Positions 979-63,380 of a DNA stretch of 64,000 nt are shown piece by piece. The notes below the pieces were generated by a model. It was not told the DNA's origin and searched no databases. It worked only from the letters and a program-made list of their open reading frames with translations. The stretch comes from Massilia sp. Leaf139 (GTDB lineage: Bacteria > Pseudomonadota > Gammaproteobacteria > Burkholderiales > Burkholderiaceae_D), in assembly GCF_001424165.1 (NCBI RefSeq), contig NZ_LMOJ01000028.1:62001-126000 (forward strand). Reading direction: 5' to 3'. Numbering within the stretch: the first letter of the stretch is position 1; the number at the start of each line of letters is the position of its first letter. The position numbers were made by a program, and so were the translations under genes.

Positions 979-1365
979 ATGATGAGTGAAACGATGACTT
1001 TCGATGCGCGCGGCCTGGCCGAAACCCTCGACGCAAGCAGCCAGGAACAGCTCGACACGCTCGATTACGGCGTGATCGGTTTCGACGCCGAATCCGTTGT
1101 CCAGCGCTATAACGCCTTCGAGTCGCAGGCCGCCGGCCTGTCGCCCCAGCGCGTGCTCGGCGAGCCGCTGTTCACCAATGTCGCGCCCTGCCTCAACAAT
1201 TTTCTGGTCGCACAGCGTTTCGAAGACGCCTTCGACGAGGGCAGCGAACTCGACGACACGATCGACTACGTCCTGACCCTGCGCATGCGTCCGGTCAAGG
1301 TCAAGCTGCGCCTGCTGGCAAGCGCCGGCAGCGCCATCCGCTACGTCCTGGTGCAGCGCCGGTGA
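979..1365 (+). CDS. photoactive yellow protein (PYP)-family PAS protein
   Basis: A 128-residue single-domain protein, against 125 for Halorhodospira halophila PYP. From the start through the chromophore site it aligns to PYP with a constant +2 offset and no gap. Tyr44 matches Tyr42 and Glu48 matches Glu46, both within RYNAFE. Cys71, within NVAPC, matches the p-coumaroyl attachment residue Cys69. The RMRP segment keeps the Met equivalent to Met100. Thr50 and Arg52 are replaced by Ala and Leu, so colour tuning or kinetics may differ, or the pocket may bind something else. It is probably a cytoplasmic blue-light sensor. It is first in an operon with two c-di-GMP enzymes, and its stop overlaps the next start (GTGA). 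A purine-rich GGCGGGAA precedes the start; ATG at 982 or 994 are alternatives. Chromophore binding is not proven. Confidence 0.82.
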   Translation: MMSETMTFDARGLAETLDASSQEQLDTLDYGVIGFDAESVVQRYNAFESQAAGLSPQRVLGEPLFTNVAPCLNNFLVAQRFEDAFDEGSELDDTIDYVLTLRMRPVKVKLRLLASAGSAIRYVLVQRR

Positions 1366-2717
1366 TTCCAGTCGACGACAGCGTGGAGAGCCTGCGCGCC
1401 GAGCACGAAGCCCTGATGCAGTTCCTGTACCTGGCCCCGGTGGGCCTGGTGCAGGCAGATCTCGACGGCGAGATCGTGATGATCAATCCGATTTCTGCCC
1501 AGCTCCTGATGCCGCTGTCGCCCGACGGCTGCCTGACCAACCTCTTTGCCGCGCTCGAAGGCGTGGCGCCCGACCTGCGCCTGCAGTGCCGCGAGTACCC
1601 GCGCGCGAACGGCATGGTCTTCGAAGGCCTGCACATCCACCTGCGCCCGCAGGGCCTGCGCAAGGCCACGCCGCAGATCCTGTCGCTCACGCTCCTGAAG
1701 CTCGACGAGGCGCGCGTCATGGCCGTGATCCAGGACGTGACGGCCGAAGTGCGGCGCGAACGCCAGCTGCGCCAGAGCGACGCCTGGCTCAACGCCATCC
1801 TGACCCGCATCAGCGACTATGCGCTGGCCGCGCTCGACCGCCAGGGCCGCCTGTGCGACTGGAACGAGAGCATCGCCCGCGTCACCGGCTTCGACGAGCA
1901 CATCGTCGGTTCGCCCTATTCCATCTTCTACCCGCGCGACGCGATGACGGACGAGCACCTTCTCGACCGCCTTCGCGAAGCGGATCACAACGGCTGGAGC
2001 ATGGACGAAGGCCTGCGCCTGCGCGCCGACGGCAGCCAGTTCTGGTGCAGCGCCCTGATCGCGCCGCTGCCCGATCGCGAAGCCTTCGGCGACGATCCAA
2101 ACGCGCCGGCCTTTTGCCTGATCCTGCGCGACATCAGCGACAAGCGCGCCGCCACCGAGAAGCGGCGCCAGGCCGCCTTCTGCGATCACCTGACCGAGCT
2201 GGCCAACCGGCGCGCCTTTTTCGAAGCGGCCGAGCTCGAACTCGACCGCGCCGCCCATACCCCGCGCTCGCTGGCGCTGATCGTCTTCGACGCCGACCAC
2301 TTCAAGCACATCAACGACCGCTACGGCCACCCGGCCGGCGACCGCGTCCTGTGCGACCTCGCCAACGTGTTGCGCGACACCTTCCGCGCGGTCGACACCG
2401 TGGCGCGCCTGGGCGGCGAGGAATTCGCCGTGCTGCTCCCCTCGACCGGCATCGAGCAGGCCCTGGCCAGCGCCGAGCGCCTGCGCGCCCAGGTGGCGAC
2501 GCGCCTGGTGGCGGCCGACGGCTTCGAGATCGCCTACACTGTCAGCGCCGGCGTCGCCGTGCTGAACGACGAAGGCCTCGGCATCGATGCCCTCGTCAAA
2601 CGCGCCGATCAGGCGCTGTACTTCGCCAAATCGCAGGGACGTAACCGCGTCTCCCCCTGGAACCCGGAGCTAGCCACGCATGAAAACCCTCCACCACGAA
2701 GCCGCCATGCAGGTTGA
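1362..2717 (+). CDS. PAS-PAS-GGDEF diguanylate cyclase
   Basis: A 451-residue cytoplasmic protein with no membrane segment. Residues about 10-130 form a PAS-like domain that closely resembles the N-terminus of the next gene product (shared FLYLAPVGLVQ/FLYRAPIGLVQ-type opening and LFA.LEGVAP). Residues about 135-265 form a second PAS domain (WNESIARVTGF), and a GGDEF domain ends the protein. The active site is GGEEF near residue 352. An RAVD inhibitory I-site lies exactly five residues before it, so the enzyme should make c-di-GMP and be product-inhibited. The start is GTG at 1362, overlapping the PYP-like gene's TGA, which implies translational coupling. The input signal probably comes through the PAS domains, perhaps by contact with the PYP-like protein (inference). 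Confidence 0.9.
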   Translation: MIPVDDSVESLRAEHEALMQFLYLAPVGLVQADLDGEIVMINPISAQLLMPLSPDGCLTNLFAALEGVAPDLRLQCREYPRANGMVFEGLHIHLRPQGLRKATPQILSLTLLKLDEARVMAVIQDVTAEVRRERQLRQSDAWLNAILTRISDYALAALDRQGRLCDWNESIARVTGFDEHIVGSPYSIFYPRDAMTDEHLLDRLREADHNGWSMDEGLRLRADGSQFWCSALIAPLPDREAFGDDPNAPAFCLILRDISDKRAATEKRRQAAFCDHLTELANRRAFFEAAELELDRAAHTPRSLALIVFDADHFKHINDRYGHPAGDRVLCDLANVLRDTFRAVDTVARLGGEEFAVLLPSTGIEQALASAERLRAQVATRLVAADGFEIAYTVSAGVAVLNDEGLGIDALVKRADQALYFAKSQGRNRVSPWNPELATHENPPPRSRHAG

Positions 2718-4491
2718 GCAGATCGACGCCTACGAGGCGCTCGTCCAGTTCCTCTACCGCGCACCGATCGGCCTCGTGCAGACGAAGCTCGACGGTGGGG
2801 TGGAGATGCTCAACCCGATGGCGTCGAATCTGCTGATGCCGCTCGCCAGCGACGGCGGCCTCGATAATCTCTTCGCCGTGCTCGAAGGCGTGGCGCCGCA
2901 GCTGCAGCAGATGGCCGATGCCTTCGAACAGCCCTCGGGCGTGGTCTGCGAAGCCCTGCGCGTGCCGCTGCGCGAAGGCCGCAGCGCGCCGGGCGCGCCG
3001 CAGGTGCTGTCGATCAGCCTCATGAAGCTCGACCCCGAGCGCCTGATGGCGGCCATCACCGACGCCACCCTGGAAATGCAGCGCGAGCAGGAAAACCTGC
3101 GCCGGCGCCTGCGCAGCGCCGCGCGCACCGATGCCCTGACCCGGCTGCCGAACCGCGCCGCGGCGCGCGACCAGCTGCAAAGCCTGCTCGACCGCCAGGG
3201 CGTAGACGACCGCTTTGCGCTCCTGTTCCTCAATTGCGACCGCTTCCGCCAGGTGAACGACACGCTCGGCCAGGCCGGCGGCGACCAGTTGCTGACCGCC
3301 GTCGGCGACCGTCTGCTGGCGGCGCTGGCCGACCGCATGCGCGCGGCAGGCCTGCCGGCCGACGGCCGCATCGATCCGGCCGCCGGCGGCGCCGGCCTGG
3401 TGGCGCGCGTGGGCGGCGACGAATTCGTGGTGCTGCTCGACGGCCTGCGCCATCCCGACGAAGCCGAACGCCTGGCGCTGCGCCTGCTCGACGCGCTGGC
3501 GCGCCCGCATACCGTCGGCGGCCACGAGGTGGCCTGCCGCGCCAGCATCGGCGTCTACTGGGACGGCGGCGCAGGCGGCGACGCCGACGAGGCGATCCGC
3601 GACGCCGGCATCGCCATGATCGAGGCCAAGCGCGCCGGCGGCGCCCGCCATGTCGTGTTCGAAGCGTCCATGCGCGAACGCGCCGCGCGCCGCGCCGACA
3701 TCGAGGCCCAGCTGCGCACGGCCCTGCTGGAAGAACAGCTGTTCGTGGTCTACCAGCCAGTGGTCGGCCTCGCCGCGGACGGCACGGTCGACCACGCGGC
3801 CGGGGTCGAGGCCCTGGTGCGCTGGCAGCATCCGACGCGCGGCCTGGTGCCGCCCTTCGACTTCATCGGCATCGCCGAGGAATGCGGCCTGATCGACCAG
3901 ATCGGCGACTTCGTGCTGGCGCGTTCCTGCACCGACTTCATGCGCTGGCGCGCCGAACTGGGCGAACGCGCGCCGCGCTTGATGGCGGTGAACCTGTCGC
4001 GCGCCCAACTGGCCCAGCCCGACTGGACGGCCAAGGTGGCCGCCATCCTGGCGGAGACCGGCATGCCGGCCGCCAGCCTGCAGCTCGAGGTGACCGAAAG
4101 CCTGGCGGCCCAGGACGAACAGATCCAGGTGCGCCTGCACGAACTGAAGGGCCTGGGCGTGAAGCTCGCGCTGGACGATTTCGGCACCGGCTATTCCTCG
4201 CTCTCGAGCCTGCACCTGCTGCCGGTCGACACGGTCAAGATCGACCGCTCCTTCGTGTGCAAGGCCGATACCAGCCACCACCACCAGGTGCTGATCGAAG
4301 CCACCGTCAAGGTGGCGCAGAGCCTGGGCATGAACACGGTGGCCGAGGGCATCGAGACCGCCGCCCAGCTCGACGCGGTGCGCGCCCAGTCCTGCGCCAA
4401 GGGCCAAGGCTACCTGTTCAGCCGGCCGCTGGTCTCGAGCGCGCTGGTGGAATGGATCGGCGCCCGGTTCGCCGCGCCCGGCCAGGCCTGA
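2680..4491 (+). CDS. PAS-GGDEF-EAL c-di-GMP turnover protein
   Basis: A 603-residue cytoplasmic protein. The N-terminal PAS-like domain (about 10-125) is paralogous to that of the preceding cyclase. The GGDEF domain has an intact GGDEF near residue 245 but no RxxD I-site. The EAL domain starts near residue 375 and shows the catalytic signatures EALVRW, LEVTES, DDFGTGYSSL, KIDRSF and AEGIET, so phosphodiesterase activity is expected. It may be bifunctional, or the GGDEF part may act as a GTP-sensing regulator. The start at 2680 (GGAG 10 bp upstream) overlaps the previous gene by 38 bp; ATG at 2707 is an alternative. With the cyclase and the PYP-like protein it forms a make/break pair for c-di-GMP. 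Confidence 0.9.
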   Translation: MKTLHHEAAMQVEQIDAYEALVQFLYRAPIGLVQTKLDGGVEMLNPMASNLLMPLASDGGLDNLFAVLEGVAPQLQQMADAFEQPSGVVCEALRVPLREGRSAPGAPQVLSISLMKLDPERLMAAITDATLEMQREQENLRRRLRSAARTDALTRLPNRAAARDQLQSLLDRQGVDDRFALLFLNCDRFRQVNDTLGQAGGDQLLTAVGDRLLAALADRMRAAGLPADGRIDPAAGGAGLVARVGGDEFVVLLDGLRHPDEAERLALRLLDALARPHTVGGHEVACRASIGVYWDGGAGGDADEAIRDAGIAMIEAKRAGGARHVVFEASMRERAARRADIEAQLRTALLEEQLFVVYQPVVGLAADGTVDHAAGVEALVRWQHPTRGLVPPFDFIGIAEECGLIDQIGDFVLARSCTDFMRWRAELGERAPRLMAVNLSRAQLAQPDWTAKVAAILAETGMPAASLQLEVTESLAAQDEQIQVRLHELKGLGVKLALDDFGTGYSSLSSLHLLPVDTVKIDRSFVCKADTSHHHQVLIEATVKVAQSLGMNTVAEGIETAAQLDAVRAQSCAKGQGYLFSRPLVSSALVEWIGARFAAPGQA

Positions 4492-4601: not shown

Positions 4602-4856
4602 ATGAAGCACACCATCACCGCATTGCTGCTGGCCGCCGGACTGGCCCTGGCCGGCTGCGCGAACACCTCCAGCGACACCATGGACAGCAGCGTCTCGGGC
4701 AGCAGCAGCGGCTCGATGACAAGCGGCAGCACCGGCAGCGCCGGCGCCACCAGCACCTCGGGCACGACCGGCGGCGTGGACGCCGCGAATGCCGACGTCA
4801 AGGGTTCCACCAGCGCCACCGGCGCCACGCCCGCCAATACAGGCGACCGCCGCTAA
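4602..4856 (+). CDS. small Ser/Gly/Thr-rich lipoprotein, copy 1
   Basis: An 84-residue predicted lipoprotein. The signal peptide (MKHTITALLLAAGLALAG) ends in a LALAGC lipobox with the lipid-bearing cysteine at residue 22. The mature part is an unstructured Ser/Gly/Thr/Ala-rich tail with no recognisable domain. A GGGAG ribosome site precedes the ATG. It is paralogous in architecture, leader and position to the next gene, so the pair arose by tandem duplication. Function is unknown; an envelope-stress or osmotic role would be a guess. Confidence 0.75.
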   Translation: MKHTITALLLAAGLALAGCANTSSDTMDSSVSGSSSGSMTSGSTGSAGATSTSGTTGGVDAANADVKGSTSATGATPANTGDRR

Positions 4857-4883
4857 AGTTCCCTTCACGATTCTTCATTAACT

Positions 4884-4983
4884 GTCCGGTATCTCCTACA
4901 TGCGCTCTCGCTGTCTTCCTATAGCGATTGCTCCAGTGCGCTCGCATGATGAAGATCTCGACAATCCACGGAGGGTAAACAAG
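4884..4983 (+). promoter_or_regulatory. duplicated promoter/leader, copy 2
   Basis: This is the second copy of the leader described at 4504-4601. It has GTCCGG (4884), TCCTACA (4894-4900), TTCCTAT (4916-4922) and CGCAT (4943), ending in a strong GGAGGG ribosome site (4970-4975). Conserved spacing with diverged intervening bases suggests the blocks are functional. Confidence 0.5.
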
Positions 4984-5346
4984 ATGAAAAGTACCGTACT
5001 GAGCGTTATCGCCGCCGCAGCCATGGGCCTGAGCCTGGCCGCCTGCCAGTCGACCGGCACCACCGACACCTCGTCGGGTACCAGCACCTCGGGCACCTCC
5101 GGCAGCGGCTCGGGCATGACCGAACGCGGCAACCCGACCACCGGCGTCACCGGCAGCACGCCGACCACCGGTTCGAGCGGCACCTCGAGCAGCTCGGGCG
5201 CCTGGGGTACGGGCGCATCGGGCACCACCGGCACCACCGGCAGCACCAACTCGATGGGGACGAGCGGCGCCACCGGCACTTCGACCACGCCACCGGCCGG
5301 CGCGACCACCACGCCACCAACCGGCAGCAGCGGCACCGGCCGTTGA
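4984..5346 (+). CDS. small Ser/Gly/Thr-rich lipoprotein, copy 2
   Basis: A 120-residue lipoprotein with signal peptide MKSTVLSVIAAAAMGLSLAA and a lipobox (LSLAAC, Cys at 21). The low-complexity tail of Gly, Ser and Thr with TTGS-type repeats and a Pro/Thr-rich end is likely disordered. It is a tandem paralogue of the gene at 4602. Its leader repeats the upstream copy at fixed spacing, so the two are probably co-regulated rather than simply co-transcribed. No function can be assigned. Confidence 0.75.
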   Translation: MKSTVLSVIAAAAMGLSLAACQSTGTTDTSSGTSTSGTSGSGSGMTERGNPTTGVTGSTPTTGSSGTSSSSGAWGTGASGTTGTTGSTNSMGTSGATGTSTTPPAGATTTPPTGSSGTGR

Positions 5347-5502: not shown

Positions 5503-6510
5503 ATGAAACACTGGCTTGCGCGCTGGTTCGGCGGCGCCTCGAAGCAGGTTCCTTCCGCGCCGCCCGCGGCGAGGGCTGCACGCCCACTCCCGTCGGCACC
5601 CGCGGTCCCGTCCACGCCCGCAGCCGACACGCCTGGCGACCGTGCCGAGGTCGACGCCGCCTTTTTCCACATGCTGGCCGGCAGTGCCGCCGCCGACGCC
5701 CCGGAAGCCACCGAACGCCTGATCCTCGACGAACTCGCGCGCCTGGCCGTGGCGCCCGAACGGGCCGCCGCGCTGGTGCCGCGCGTGCCGGCCGTGATCC
5801 CCGCGCTGCTGCGCAGCCTGCGCGACGAGGGCGTCTCGAACGCCGACCTGTCGCGCGTGGTCGCCCAGGACGTGGTGCTGGTGGCCGAAGTCGTGCGCGA
5901 AGCGAACAGCCCCTTCTACCGGCCTCCTTCGCCGGTCAGGAATATCGAAGGCGCCCTCATGCTGCTCGGCCAGAACGGCCTGCGCATGCTGCTGGCGCGG
6001 GTGGCTTTCCGGCCCGTGATCGGCATGCAGTCGGGGCGCTTCGCCAAGCGGGTGGCGCCCCAGGTCTGGGCGCAGTCCGAGAAATGCGCGCTCGCCGCCG
6101 CCACCCTCGCGCCCCATGCCGGCGCCCAGCCCTTCGAGGCCTACCTGGCCGGCCTGGTCGGGAACGTCGGTCTGGTGGTCGCCTTTCGCGTGGTCGATCA
6201 GGTCTATGACGAAGACCTACTGCCGCGCTCGGACGCCTTCCGCACCGCCCTGTTCGCGCATGCACGCCGCCTGGCTGCGGGAATCGCGCGCGAATGGGCC
6301 TTGCCCGAGGCGGCGGCCGGCGCCATCGCCGACGCCGGCCAGTTGGACGCCGGCGCGCTGGCGCAGGTGCTGGACAATGCCGACCTGCTCGCGAAGCTGC
6401 GCCTGCTGGTGGACGCCGGCGCGCTCGCCTTCGACGACCCGCTGGTGGGGCGCATCGTCACGCCGCGCCTGCGCCCCTGTTTCGATCTCTTGCTGCCACA
6501 GGAAGCCTGA
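5503..6510 (+). CDS. HDOD domain protein
   Basis: A 335-residue cytoplasmic protein. The first 50 residues are Pro/Ala-rich and look disordered. Residues about 90-290 match the HDOD fold, an HD-related domain without the metal-binding catalytic residues: LSRVVAQDVVLVAEVVREANSPFY is followed by the IEGALMLLGQNGLRMLL helix pair. HDOD proteins act as non-catalytic signalling modules, often near c-di-GMP or chemotaxis genes. Here the gene follows c-di-GMP enzymes, but a terminator separates them. The next gene starts one base after its stop, so the two are co-transcribed. Confidence 0.85.
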   Translation: MKHWLARWFGGASKQVPSAPPAARAARPLPSAPAVPSTPAADTPGDRAEVDAAFFHMLAGSAAADAPEATERLILDELARLAVAPERAAALVPRVPAVIPALLRSLRDEGVSNADLSRVVAQDVVLVAEVVREANSPFYRPPSPVRNIEGALMLLGQNGLRMLLARVAFRPVIGMQSGRFAKRVAPQVWAQSEKCALAAATLAPHAGAQPFEAYLAGLVGNVGLVVAFRVVDQVYDEDLLPRSDAFRTALFAHARRLAAGIAREWALPEAAAGAIADAGQLDAGALAQVLDNADLLAKLRLLVDAGALAFDDPLVGRIVTPRLRPCFDLLLPQEA

Positions 6511-7488
6511 ATGCCATTTCAAATCGAAGACAAACTCGTGATCGGGATCGCCTCGAGCGCCCTGTTCGACCTGTCCGCCTCGCACCAGGTCTATCTCGAC
6601 AAGGGCCCGGAAGAATACCGGGTCTACCAGGAACGGCACCTCGACACCATCCTCGGCAAGGGCGTGGCCTTTCCCTTCATCCGCCGCGTCCTGAACATCA
6701 ACCGCTGCTTCCCGCAGGAGTCGCCGGTCGAGGTGGTGCTGTTTTCGCGGAATTCGCCGGAGACGGGGCTGCGGGTACTGCGCTCGATTGCGCATTACGG
6801 ACTCGACATCTCGCGCGCCGCCTTCATGACCGGCAAGTCGCCCTATTCCTACCTGCCCGCCTTTAATGCCTCGCTGTTCCTGAGCGCGAACGAGGAAGAC
6901 GTCAAAAGCGCCATCGCCGTGAATTACCCGGCCGGGCTGGTGCTGCCCTCGCAGATCGACGACGGCGACGAGGATCTGGAACTGCGCGTCGCCTTCGACT
7001 TCGACGGCGTACTGGCCGACGACGAATCGGAAACCGTCTTCAAGCGCGACGGCCTCGATCGCTTCCACGCCCACGAAACCCTGCACATGGAACGTCCGCA
7101 CAGCCCCGGGCCGCTGGCCAGCCTGTTCCAGAAGCTGGCGATGCTGCAGCGCCTGGAAGAACGCGCAGCGCGCCGCGATCCGGGCTACCGCCGCATCGTG
7201 CGCATCGCCATCATCACGGCGCGCAGCGCACCCTCGCACGAGCGCGTGGTGACGACCCTGAAAAGCTGGGGCGTCTCGGCCGACGAGACCTTCTTCCTGG
7301 GCGGGATGGACAAGACGCGCGTGCTGGCCGTGTTCCGGCCGCACATTTTCTTCGACGACCAGCTGACCCACTTGCGCGCCGCGCCGGGCGGGACGATCCC
7401 GATGGTGCACGTGCCCTTCGGGATCGCGAACCGGGAATCGGCGGCGCCAGCCCACACAGCGGCAAGCGAGACGCTCGCGCCCGACTAG
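6511..7488 (+). CDS. cytosolic 5'-nucleotidase (NT5C1-like family)
   Basis: A 325-residue protein of the cytosolic 5'-nucleotidase I family, which dephosphorylates nucleoside 5'-monophosphates. The HAD-like nucleophile motif is DFDGVLADDESE around residue 169, and a later FFDDQ supplies the acidic metal ligands. The N-terminal LVIGIASSALFDL and the NINRCFP and SRNSPETGLRV segments are typical of the family. It starts directly after the HDOD stop. It converges with the following minus-strand gene, overlapping it by 4 bp. Confidence 0.85.
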   Translation: MPFQIEDKLVIGIASSALFDLSASHQVYLDKGPEEYRVYQERHLDTILGKGVAFPFIRRVLNINRCFPQESPVEVVLFSRNSPETGLRVLRSIAHYGLDISRAAFMTGKSPYSYLPAFNASLFLSANEEDVKSAIAVNYPAGLVLPSQIDDGDEDLELRVAFDFDGVLADDESETVFKRDGLDRFHAHETLHMERPHSPGPLASLFQKLAMLQRLEERAARRDPGYRRIVRIAIITARSAPSHERVVTTLKSWGVSADETFFLGGMDKTRVLAVFRPHIFFDDQLTHLRAAPGGTIPMVHVPFGIANRESAAPAHTAASETLAPD

Positions 7489-61676: not shown

Positions 61677-63380
61677 TCAGTCATCGGTTTGATTACTGAT
61701 GCGCATGGCTTCGCCGATGGTCGTGCGTCCCTGCACAGCCAGCTGCACGCCGTGGCGGCGCAGGGTCTCGCCGCCCATCTCGGCCTGGGCCACCTTCAGG
61801 AAGTGGGCCGGATCGGGGTGGTTGGCGGCGTCGGTCACGGAGCGCGTCATCTCCAGCAGCTCATAGACACCGGTACGGCCGCGGTAGCCGGTGCCGTTGC
61901 AATGCGAGCAGCCTTTCCCGTGGAAGAACTGGGCCTGCTCGACGAAGTTGCCGAGTTCGGCGCGCAACCAGGTCTGTTCCGGCGGCGTCGGCTGGTAAGT
62001 GGTGGAGCAGCTTTCGCAGATCACGCGCACCAGGCGCTGGGCCAGCACGGCCTGGAGCGAACCGCCCACCATGTAGCGCGGCACGCCCATGTCCATCAGG
62101 CGCAGCGGCGTGCTCGCCGCATCGTTGGTGTGCAGGGTCGAGAGCACCAGGTGGCCCGTCATGGCGGCGCGCAGGCCGATCTGCGCCGTTTCCTGGTCGC
62201 GCATCTCGCCCACCAGCACGATGTCCGGATCCTGGCGCAGCGCGGAGCGCAGCACGCGCGCGAACGACAATTCGATCTTCTCGTTCACCTGCACCTGGTT
62301 GATGCCCTGCAGGCGGTACTCGACCGGGTCTTCGACGGTGATCAGCTTCTTCTCGACCGAGTTCAGTTCGGCCAGCGCGCTGTAGAGGGTCGTGGTCTTG
62401 CCGCTACCCGTGGGGCCGGTCACCAGCACCAGGCCGTTCGGGCGCTGGACGATGGCGCGGAAGCGCTCCAGCATCTTTCGGGGCATGCCGATCGACTCCA
62501 GGCGCAGCGTGTTGCCGGCCTGGTTCAGGAGTCGCATGACGACCGATTCGCCGAACTGGGTCGGCATGGTCGAGATACGCACGTCGATGCGCTGGTTCTT
62601 CACCTTCATGGCGAAGCGGCCGTCCTGCGGCAGGCGCTTTTCCGAGATGTCGAGATCGGCCATCAGCTTCAGGCGCAACGCCAGCGGTGTGGCGATCTTG
62701 ATGTCGGCCTCGGTCTGCAGGTGCAGCACGCCGTCGATGCGGAAGCGGATCTGCAGGCGCCCTTCCTGCGGCTCGATGTGGATGTCCGAGGCGCGTACCT
62801 GGGCGGCGTCGTCGAACACCGACTGCAGGAGCTTCACCACCGGCGCTTCTTCCAGGCCTGGATTGGCGGTCATGGCGCCGAAGTCGACGAAAGCATCGCC
62901 GATGTCGGCCTCGACCTCTTTCGCGAAGTCGGTGATGTCGCCGGTGCGGCGGTAGATGCGGTCGATCGTGTGCAGCACCTCGGTCTCGTTGACCACGGCC
63001 AGCTCGACGTTCTTCTTCAGCAGGCGCGCGATCTCGTCGTAGGCGAACAGGTCGGTCGGATCGGACACGCCGACCAGCAAGCCGCCCTGGCGCTCTTCCA
63101 GCACCAGCGCGCGGAAGCGGCGCGCGGCCGTTTCCGGCAACAGGCGCACCAGCGCATCGCTGATGTTGTAGAACTTGAGGTTGATGTAGGGGATGTTCAG
63201 CTGGCGCGCTAGGGCGCCGGAGATCTGCTCTTCGGTGACGAACCCGTTCTCGACAAACACGCGCCCGAGCTTGCGCCCCGTGCGCTTCTGGTCGCTCAAC
63301 GCCTGGTTCAGCTGCTCCTCGGACAGCAGTTTTTGCTGCACCAGGATTTCACCGAGCCTGACTTTTTCTGGCCTTGCCAT
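61677..63380 (-). CDS. mshE: MSHA pilus extension ATPase MshE, c-di-GMP-binding type
   Basis: A 567-residue GspE/PilB ATPase. Residues about 5-60 hold two MshEN motifs (RLGEILVQQKLLSEEQLNQAL and KLGRVFVENGFVTEEQ...ARQ), which in known MshE bind c-di-GMP. Further features are Walker A GPTGSGKTT near residue 330, Asp and His boxes, Walker B DIVLVGEMRD and a zinc-type CxxC...CxxC cluster near 470-505. It powers pilus extension. AAGGGG precedes the ATG. It is the first gene of the locus. Confidence 0.94.
   Translation of the reverse strand: MARPEKVRLGEILVQQKLLSEEQLNQALSDQKRTGRKLGRVFVENGFVTEEQISGALARQLNIPYINLKFYNISDALVRLLPETAARRFRALVLEERQGGLLVGVSDPTDLFAYDEIARLLKKNVELAVVNETEVLHTIDRIYRRTGDITDFAKEVEADIGDAFVDFGAMTANPGLEEAPVVKLLQSVFDDAAQVRASDIHIEPQEGRLQIRFRIDGVLHLQTEADIKIATPLALRLKLMADLDISEKRLPQDGRFAMKVKNQRIDVRISTMPTQFGESVVMRLLNQAGNTLRLESIGMPRKMLERFRAIVQRPNGLVLVTGPTGSGKTTTLYSALAELNSVEKKLITVEDPVEYRLQGINQVQVNEKIELSFARVLRSALRQDPDIVLVGEMRDQETAQIGLRAAMTGHLVLSTLHTNDAASTPLRLMDMGVPRYMVGGSLQAVLAQRLVRVICESCSTTYQPTPPEQTWLRAELGNFVEQAQFFHGKGCSHCNGTGYRGRTGVYELLEMTRSVTDAANHPDPAHFLKVAQAEMGGETLRRHGVQLAVQGRTTIGEAMRISNQTDD

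Follow-up and report, generated by a model that had tools for sequence, protein, structure and literature searches.

A clade-C-like photoactive yellow protein of Massilia sp. Leaf139 and a shared N-terminal domain of c-di-GMP enzymes as its candidate receiver

In this article we discuss a three-gene operon of Massilia sp. Leaf139 that combines a gene (pyp) for a homologue of photoactive yellow protein (PYP) with genes for two enzymes of cyclic di-GMP (c-di-GMP) turnover, namely a predicted diguanylate cyclase and a likely phosphodiesterase. The operon lies in a 64,000-nucleotide (nt) stretch of DNA (the window; G000:C28:62001-126000, i.e., positions 62,001 to 126,000 of contig NZ_LMOJ01000028.1), part of a 28-contig, 5.39 Mb genome (NCBI RefSeq assembly GCF_001424165.1). 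Both enzymes start with the same type of domain, for which we coined the name PASN (the first ~125 residues of either protein), and PASN is the element that stays conserved beside PYPs of clade C while the output domain behind it changes. As PASN is almost always found together with clade-C PYP in the genomes checked, it is a testable candidate receiver of the light signal. We consider it fairly probable that the operon encodes a blue-light-to-c-di-GMP switch working in trans, with PYP driving the cyclase and the phosphodiesterase via PASN; the sensing of light, the binding, and the direction of the effect are what we infer here.

The operon is laid out as follows.
979 to 1365, + strand: PYP homologue of 128 residues, clade-C-like; Y44/E48/C71 correspond to Tyr42/Glu46/Cys69
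1362 to 2717, + strand: predicted diguanylate cyclase PASN-PAS-GGDEF of 451 residues, with GGEEF and RxxD motifs; its GTG start overlaps the pyp stop
1386 to 1763, + strand: PASN of the cyclase, candidate PYP receiver, without a Pfam match
2680 to 4491 (alternative start 2707), + strand: PASN-GGDEF-EAL protein of 603 residues with an intact EAL motif, likely a phosphodiesterase
2716 to 3087, + strand: PASN of the GGDEF-EAL protein

The PYP homologue and its clade

An earlier note, made from the sequence alone, had described three overlapping genes here (PYP-like, cyclase, and GGDEF-EAL), and these open reading frames (ORFs) are indeed present. The GTG start codon of the cyclase gene at 1362 overlaps the pyp stop codon (TGA, 1363-1365), and the cyclase and GGDEF-EAL genes in turn overlap by 38 nt (ATG at 2680) or 11 nt (ATG at 2707), depending on the start; both overlaps had been read correctly.

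The first gene product is a PYP homologue by sequence as well as by predicted fold. Its similarity to PYP greatly exceeds chance: a phmmer comparison with PDB sequences puts Ppr of R. centenum first (PYP domain, 1mzu; 6e-18) and H. halophila PYP with its variants next (starting at 1.1e-14). Of the 34 matches at E ≤ 1, all but RpfR (0.71) are PYPs or derived from PYP. The structure prediction and alignment proposed in the earlier note bear this out: the AlphaFold model has a pLDDT of 84.3, and its 40 best Foldseek matches are all PYP or PYP-derived, with TM scores up to 0.86 (by query length), which gives the protein a PYP fold. Its numbering runs at an offset of +2 from that of H. halophila PYP, thus placing Y44, E48, and C71 at Tyr42, Glu46, and Cys69. 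This triad had been recognized before; the claim of an alignment without gaps holds up to the cysteine and fails near residue 89, where there is one extra residue. The protein also falls within the PYP family as defined by Xing et al. 2022 (a homologue with conserved Cys69), with Tyr42 and Glu46 present too. For the NCBIfam equivalog TIGR02373 (photo_yellow) it scores 76.8 bits, below the cut-off of 143.05; in the text of Xing et al. 2022 (PMC9664959), this model is reported to cover 20% of the PYP homologues found by BLAST. It is the sole clear PYP of the genome (next match E 0.459). The earlier note had rightly read Thr50 and Arg52 as changed (to Ala and Leu) and had suggested that the photochemistry may be unusual for this reason; this suggestion is not supported, since Ala50/Leu52 is, in the section on the family (section 5) of PMC12826048, the consensus of the published PYP family.

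Clade C is described by Xing et al. (PMC9664959, main text) as found mostly in Proteobacteria, notably Burkholderiales, with a highly conserved Met100, no conservation of Phe92, Phe96, and Trp119, and GGDEF genes as frequent neighbors. In the window protein, the corresponding residues are I (92), L (96), Y (119), and M (100), and a GGDEF gene adjoins its own. It thus fits clade C and can be called clade-C-like, an assignment made by marker residues and neighboring genes rather than by tree position. Its relatives give the same picture. The named loci used below are the best 80 of 203 relatives (several are the same contigs as the loci fetched from genomes of the family), and the closest of them are from Massilia. 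Tyr42, Glu46, and Cys69 are kept in all 60 aligned clade-C proteins, and the motifs around them in all 80 named loci. Compared with H. halophila PYP, a number of other positions have changed in most or all of the 60 proteins: F62L (51), T70M/L (60), F75V (58), F92I (58), F96L (59), D97T (58), Y98L (57), and W119Y/F (60).

The two c-di-GMP enzymes

Pfam clearly detects GGDEF (154 bits) and EAL (226.8 bits), and the second PAS domain of the cyclase is a PAS_9. With its GGEEF motif (in line with GG[DE]EF) and an RxxD inhibitory-site motif, the second gene product is a predicted diguanylate cyclase whose catalytic motif is intact. The third gene product contains a GGDEF motif and the full EAL signature (the EAL, NLS, DDFGTG, and KID motifs) and is therefore likely a phosphodiesterase. 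Among the relatives, GGEEF is found in 64 of 65 cyclases and EAL in 72 of 72 phosphodiesterases, while the latter's own GGDEF is intact in 49/72 (two rows of the 72-row EAL alignment are incomplete; these counts replace those of a looser pattern).

The order pyp, cyclase, GGDEF-EAL recurs across many genera. The ingredients of the compact light-to-c-di-GMP switch envisaged in the earlier note are all present: a full triad, a cyclase with GGEEF and RxxD, and an intact EAL domain. As an arrangement, PYP beside GGDEF/EAL genes is known and not new in itself, because the text of Xing et al. 2022 (PMC9664959) already reports clade-C PYPs in that neighborhood. What appears to be new is the dedicated domain PASN shared by the two enzymes, along with its occurrence on a kinase and its survival where the catalytic domain is gone.

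PASN tracks clade-C PYP

The PASN of the cyclase and that of the GGDEF-EAL protein are homologous and 49% identical, and neither has a Pfam match at E ≤ 0.1 with all PAS models included. The AlphaFold model of the cyclase PASN (pLDDT 86.2) is PAS-like and weakly matches many PAS domains (best E 9.7e-5; best Z 10.1). A PAS fold is thus predicted by the model for the cyclase copy and, through homology to that copy, for the GGDEF-EAL copy. Of the domain labels given earlier, GGDEF, EAL, and the second PAS are supported by Pfam, and the N-terminal PAS of either enzyme by model or homology instead.

Two other origins of the pattern described below were considered and rejected. That PASN is a decayed duplicate of PYP was dismissed at a probability of 0.7% in a profile-profile comparison. 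That a generic PAS domain was being picked up is contradicted by the match strengths: the weakest among the matches listed in the family search (limit 1e-8) has an E value of 6.1e-40. The order and phylum searches, run at 1e-5, gave matches exclusively in genomes that have clade-C PYP, none of them weaker than 3.9e-20. In each genome the 11-15 best candidates were scored, so very divergent PASN copies could be missed.

Within the family, 294 genomes were searched: 59 contain PYP (each with a best E of at most 7.8e-26), and 60 contain PASN, namely those 59 and G072. The PASN gene of G072 (L234, 7488-8879) encodes an intact PASN-PAS-GGDEF protein and has, as judged by eye, a TetR-like ORF upstream. 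In the order, PASN occurs in 8 of 300 genomes, exactly those with clade-C PYP; the phylum set of 398 contains two genomes with PASN, and each of them has clade-C PYP. Genomes with other PYP matches gave no PASN: G415 of the order set has four distant PYPs, and in the phylum set three genomes match PYP distantly (41-72 bits) and one marginally (28.5 bits). The four PYP-like stretches of G415 are clustered (L247, G415:C1:128000-143000), none belongs to clade C, and a weak ligase-like match (138 bits) is found there as well.

Plasmids show the same association. In 72,556 plasmid records, PYP was found in 13 (E ≤ 1e-10) and PASN in 11 (E ≤ 1e-5), all 11 among those 13. Twelve of the 13 plasmid PYPs are of clade C, Alphaproteobacteria included, and PASN adjoins pyp in 11 of these 12 (identity and coordinates put H10 among these 11; H13, a canonical PYP, is left out). 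On a Comamonadaceae plasmid (L266, 5001-10063; CP099603.1), clade-C pyp faces an opposite-strand CheB-CheR-PAS-kinase gene and a BLUF gene. Its PYP is annotated as 'phosphonate transporter', like several clade-C PYPs in plasmid records.

At the level of the locus, PASN stands directly downstream of pyp in all 62 fetched family loci (33-91 base pairs (bp) between the domains) and in all 80 named loci (21-105 bp). The family has 63 clade-C matches, of which one at a contig edge (G086:C832) is outside the 62 fetched loci. Six genomes, each of which has a clade-C PYP, carry PASN genes away from pyp: G096, G453, and four of a single genus (G015, G055, G078, and G097). A second PASN of G074, on a 4.2 kb contig (L248), was not counted as unlinked. 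These co-occurrence and adjacency counts are not independent, given overlapping genome and locus sets, related genomes, and linked genes.

Output domains change while PASN persists

Of the 80 named loci, 47 have a PASN-PAS-GGDEF gene followed by a PASN-GGDEF-EAL gene, 7 the first only, 7 the second only, and 19 other variants (some of which end at contig ends). In four genomes, PASN is found on a histidine kinase (HisKA and HATPase_c) within the pyp gene run, either directly after pyp (G540 and G453) or after the PASN-GGDEF-EAL gene (G321 and G569). In other cases the catalytic domain is gone: M. timonae (L180), Massilia sp. HP4 (L177), and G286 (L057) have kept PASN-PAS and lost GGDEF, and in Telluria antibiotica (L222) what is left ahead of the PASN-GGDEF-EAL gene is PASN by itself. 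In Pseudoduganella flava and M. eurypsychrophila, a single fused gene, without the first GGDEF, takes the place of the two partner genes. Not counted as GGDEF loss are L077, where PASN-PAS and GGDEF are in separate ORFs, and L198, at a contig edge. The remnants and the fusion suggest that the partners may also contact each other. One further architecture, encountered once among the 80 named loci, is a very long stop-free frame that includes GGDEF and lies upstream of PASN-GGDEF-EAL (L231, 2449-6873).

In a tree of 167 PASN domains, one branch (support 99) separates the 79 EAL-linked ones from the rest, and another (support 95) does so for the 4 kinase-linked ones. This is a quick tree of 120 columns with a long-branch warning, two kinase rows being among those flagged; it left out one 58-bit PASN (L246), and two rows fall in no group. 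It fits one duplication, then capture of new outputs.

We also tentatively put forward a broader proposal, which we hold as possible rather than probable. PASN may be a dedicated, portable receiver for a diffusible light sensor, and clade-C PYP a light-switched effector that would plug into any PASN enzyme, be it a cyclase, a phosphodiesterase, or a histidine kinase. The PASN-only remnants could then be adaptors letting one PYP hold both enzymes in one complex.

Chromophore supply

The earlier note had made its proposal depend on a genomic route to hydroxycinnamoyl thioesters and had missed the gene next to pyp on its other side, 167 bp away.
1 to 811, - strand: N-terminal part of a p-coumarate:CoA-ligase-like gene (410 residues in total, running past the left edge of the window), divergent from pyp

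The encoded protein scores 331.7 bits for TIGR02372 (PYP-linked 4-coumarate:CoA ligase; cut-off 334.7), with the next family at 65.3, and we call it ligase-like because it stays 3 bits under that cut-off. No tyrosine ammonia lyase was found: the one PF00221 match of the genome (E ≤ 0.001) is the histidine ammonia-lyase HutH (679.2 for hutH against a cut-off of 539.15), set among the genes of a hut operon. One candidate part of the route thus adjoins pyp, and p-coumarate would probably come from an outside source such as plants.

Among relatives, a ligase is present within the fetched stretch of 39/80 named loci, 25/62 family loci, and 8 of the 11 fetched clade-C plasmid loci, and in several loci a canonical pyp adjoins the same ligase. 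On a plasmid of Indioceanicola profundi (L270, 1477-6622), a canonical pyp, pcl, an aromatic ammonia-lyase gene, a clade-C pyp, and a PASN-PAS-GGDEF gene stand in a row, so that two kinds of PYP adjoin one chromophore pathway.

These observations allow for another role of the chromophore. PYP could be loaded and yet chiefly report chromophore supply, as an apo/holo sensor of plant-derived hydroxycinnamoyl-CoA for which light is secondary. A probable external origin of p-coumarate, the divergent ligase-like gene next to pyp, and pocket residues that have changed together (F62L, F92I, F96L, D97T, and Y98L) would all suit such a sensor. On the other hand, Tyr42 and Glu46, which take part in the PYP photocycle according to the parts on the photocycle in PMC9664959 and PMC12826048, are invariant in 60/60, and the same ligase also serves as neighbor to canonical pyp. 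We therefore regard a supply sensor as improbable.

Weighing the trans-acting light switch

In the light switch that we favor, the ligase-like enzyme would make p-coumaroyl-CoA, thereby loading C71 of PYP. Blue light would isomerize the chromophore and alter the PYP surface, as in studied PYPs. In one of its states, PYP would dock on the PASN common to the cyclase and the GGDEF-EAL phosphodiesterase, and docking would set the balance of the enzymes, so that one diffusible sensor could steer both synthesis and breakdown of c-di-GMP. Circumstantial evidence backs the earlier suggestion that PYP touches PAS domains of both enzymes, as far as the N-terminal type that they share is concerned.

Several observations weigh against this switch. 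Most of the co-occurrence of PASN and PYP follows from operon linkage and shared ancestry. G072 has its intact PASN-PAS-GGDEF gene, and no PYP was found in that genome; conversely, no PASN was found on the Comamonadaceae plasmid L266, although its PYP (N43G, P68V) belongs to clade C. When rate covariation is computed over 55 loci with GGDEF and EAL as controls, PASN does not stand out: the partial r is 0.23 for the cyclase PASN, 0.30 for the second PAS, and 0.12 for the PASN of the EAL protein (0.41, 0.42, and 0.36, respectively, with the GGDEF control alone). As to the chromophore, the ligase was not found in the fetched stretch of 41/80 named loci (some stretches being short) and 37/62 family loci. 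Twelve genomes with such family loci (canonical-PYP carriers left out) were searched whole, and none contains a close TIGR02372 ligase; at 1e-20, 4 give no match, and the matches of the other 8 are weak, reaching 119.6 bits at most. In loci without a close ligase, either a general CoA ligase serves, or PYP is used otherwise.

The first of these points can be read in a different way. PASN might sense a ligand of its own, PYP might act elsewhere (on the second PAS or a catalytic domain), or the genes might merely be co-expressed, with PASN tracking PYP through block inheritance of the operon. The covariation slightly favoring the second PAS, the PYP-less G072, and the ordinary PAS-like fold of the PASN model all agree with this. 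Still, the EAL and kinase partners have PASN, and a second PAS was not detected there; PASN outlives the loss of the catalytic domain; and unlinked PASN genes occur in PYP-bearing genomes (the six above, four being of one genus). On balance, this alternative seems unlikely to us.

The missing ligases raise a further question, namely whether clade-C PYP is still a p-coumarate photoreceptor at all, or whether its cysteine has another task (redox sensing) or carries another thioester. Such a loss of function would agree with the 12 of 12 genomes lacking both an adjacent and a close ligase, with the NCBIfam score of 76.8 (cut-off 143.05), and with the statement in the text of Xing et al. 2022 (PMC9664959) that no clade-C protein has been characterized. 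It is hard to reconcile with a triad that is invariant in 60/60, a ligase adjoining in 39/80 named loci, and the Indioceanicola locus with both ligase and ammonia-lyase, and we consider it very improbable.

Promoter and neighboring genes

Upstream of pyp lies one putative regulatory site.
901 to 929, + strand: putative pyp promoter (TTGACA, 17 nt, CAACAT)

The putative core elements, ATTGACAC and TGCCAACAT, are invariant in 7 aligned sequences (the window and 6 relatives); a consensus promoter scan called no promoter, this site included. A terminator scan gave 3 terminator-like sites, compared with 1.8 expected.

Just 3' of the operon (4602-5346) lie two short ORFs with, by eye, lipoprotein-like starts and Ser/Thr/Gly-rich tails. 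An HDOD-domain gene (5503-6510; Pfam 102.3 bits) is then directly followed by a 5'-nucleotidase gene (6511-7488; 416.8 bits). Past the left edge of the window, the genome encodes a further GGDEF protein whose N-terminus is apparently membrane-bound (by eye), a hybrid kinase with several PAS domains, and a REC-PAS-GGDEF-EAL protein.

Significance and comparison with known systems

If our proposal is true, PASN would, to our knowledge, be the first domain identified as the receiver of a free-standing PYP. As a domain tied to one PYP clade and found on two opposite c-di-GMP enzymes as well as a kinase, it is a named, testable receiver that turns the open question of PYP partners into a direct binding test. 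The operon would then offer light control of c-di-GMP in two parts, a small photoreceptor that stands apart and an enzyme that it steers via a tag-like domain. The gap in knowledge has been noted before: the text of Xing et al. 2022 (PMC9664959) describes the signaling partners and outputs of PYP homologues as poorly understood, and Dohmen et al. 2025, in their abstract, name the PYP signal transduction chain as an important knowledge gap. Among the papers listed on PYP with GGDEF, c-di-GMP, and signaling partners, and in the sections of PMC9664959 and PMC12826048 covered here (supplements and figures aside), no PASN-like receiver was found.

The closest known relatives are the clade C PYPs of Xing, Gumerov, and Zhulin 2022 (PMC9664959), described in the text as free-standing, Burkholderiales-type PYPs adjoining GGDEF and EAL genes that have lost Phe92/Phe96/Trp119 and kept Met100, all as in the window. 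Light control of biofilm has been proposed for them in that text, whose abstract, Results, and Discussion, unlike our account, mention no shared or dedicated PAS in the partners and no histidine kinase or fused version (figures and data sets aside). The PYP of Idiomarina loihiensis, studied in relation to biofilm, is likewise a single-domain protein proposed to act on an adjacent GGDEF protein (texts of PMC9664959 and PMC12826048); unlike the window's, it is placed in clade A by Xing et al. (PMC9664959).

In the H. halophila pyp-pcl-tal operon, as described in section 8 of PMC12826048, the ligase adjoins pyp as it does in the window, where in contrast the ligase-like gene is divergent, no tal was found in the genome, and c-di-GMP enzymes are part of the operon. 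Finally, the PYP-phytochrome fusions Ppd of Thermochromatium tepidum and Ppr of R. centenum (texts of PMC9664959 and PMC12826048) link PYP input to GGDEF/EAL or histidine kinase output, i.e., the same types of output as those found here behind PASN. In Ppd and Ppr, PYP is fused to its output in cis, whereas the PYP of the window is a separate protein that would act in trans through PASN.

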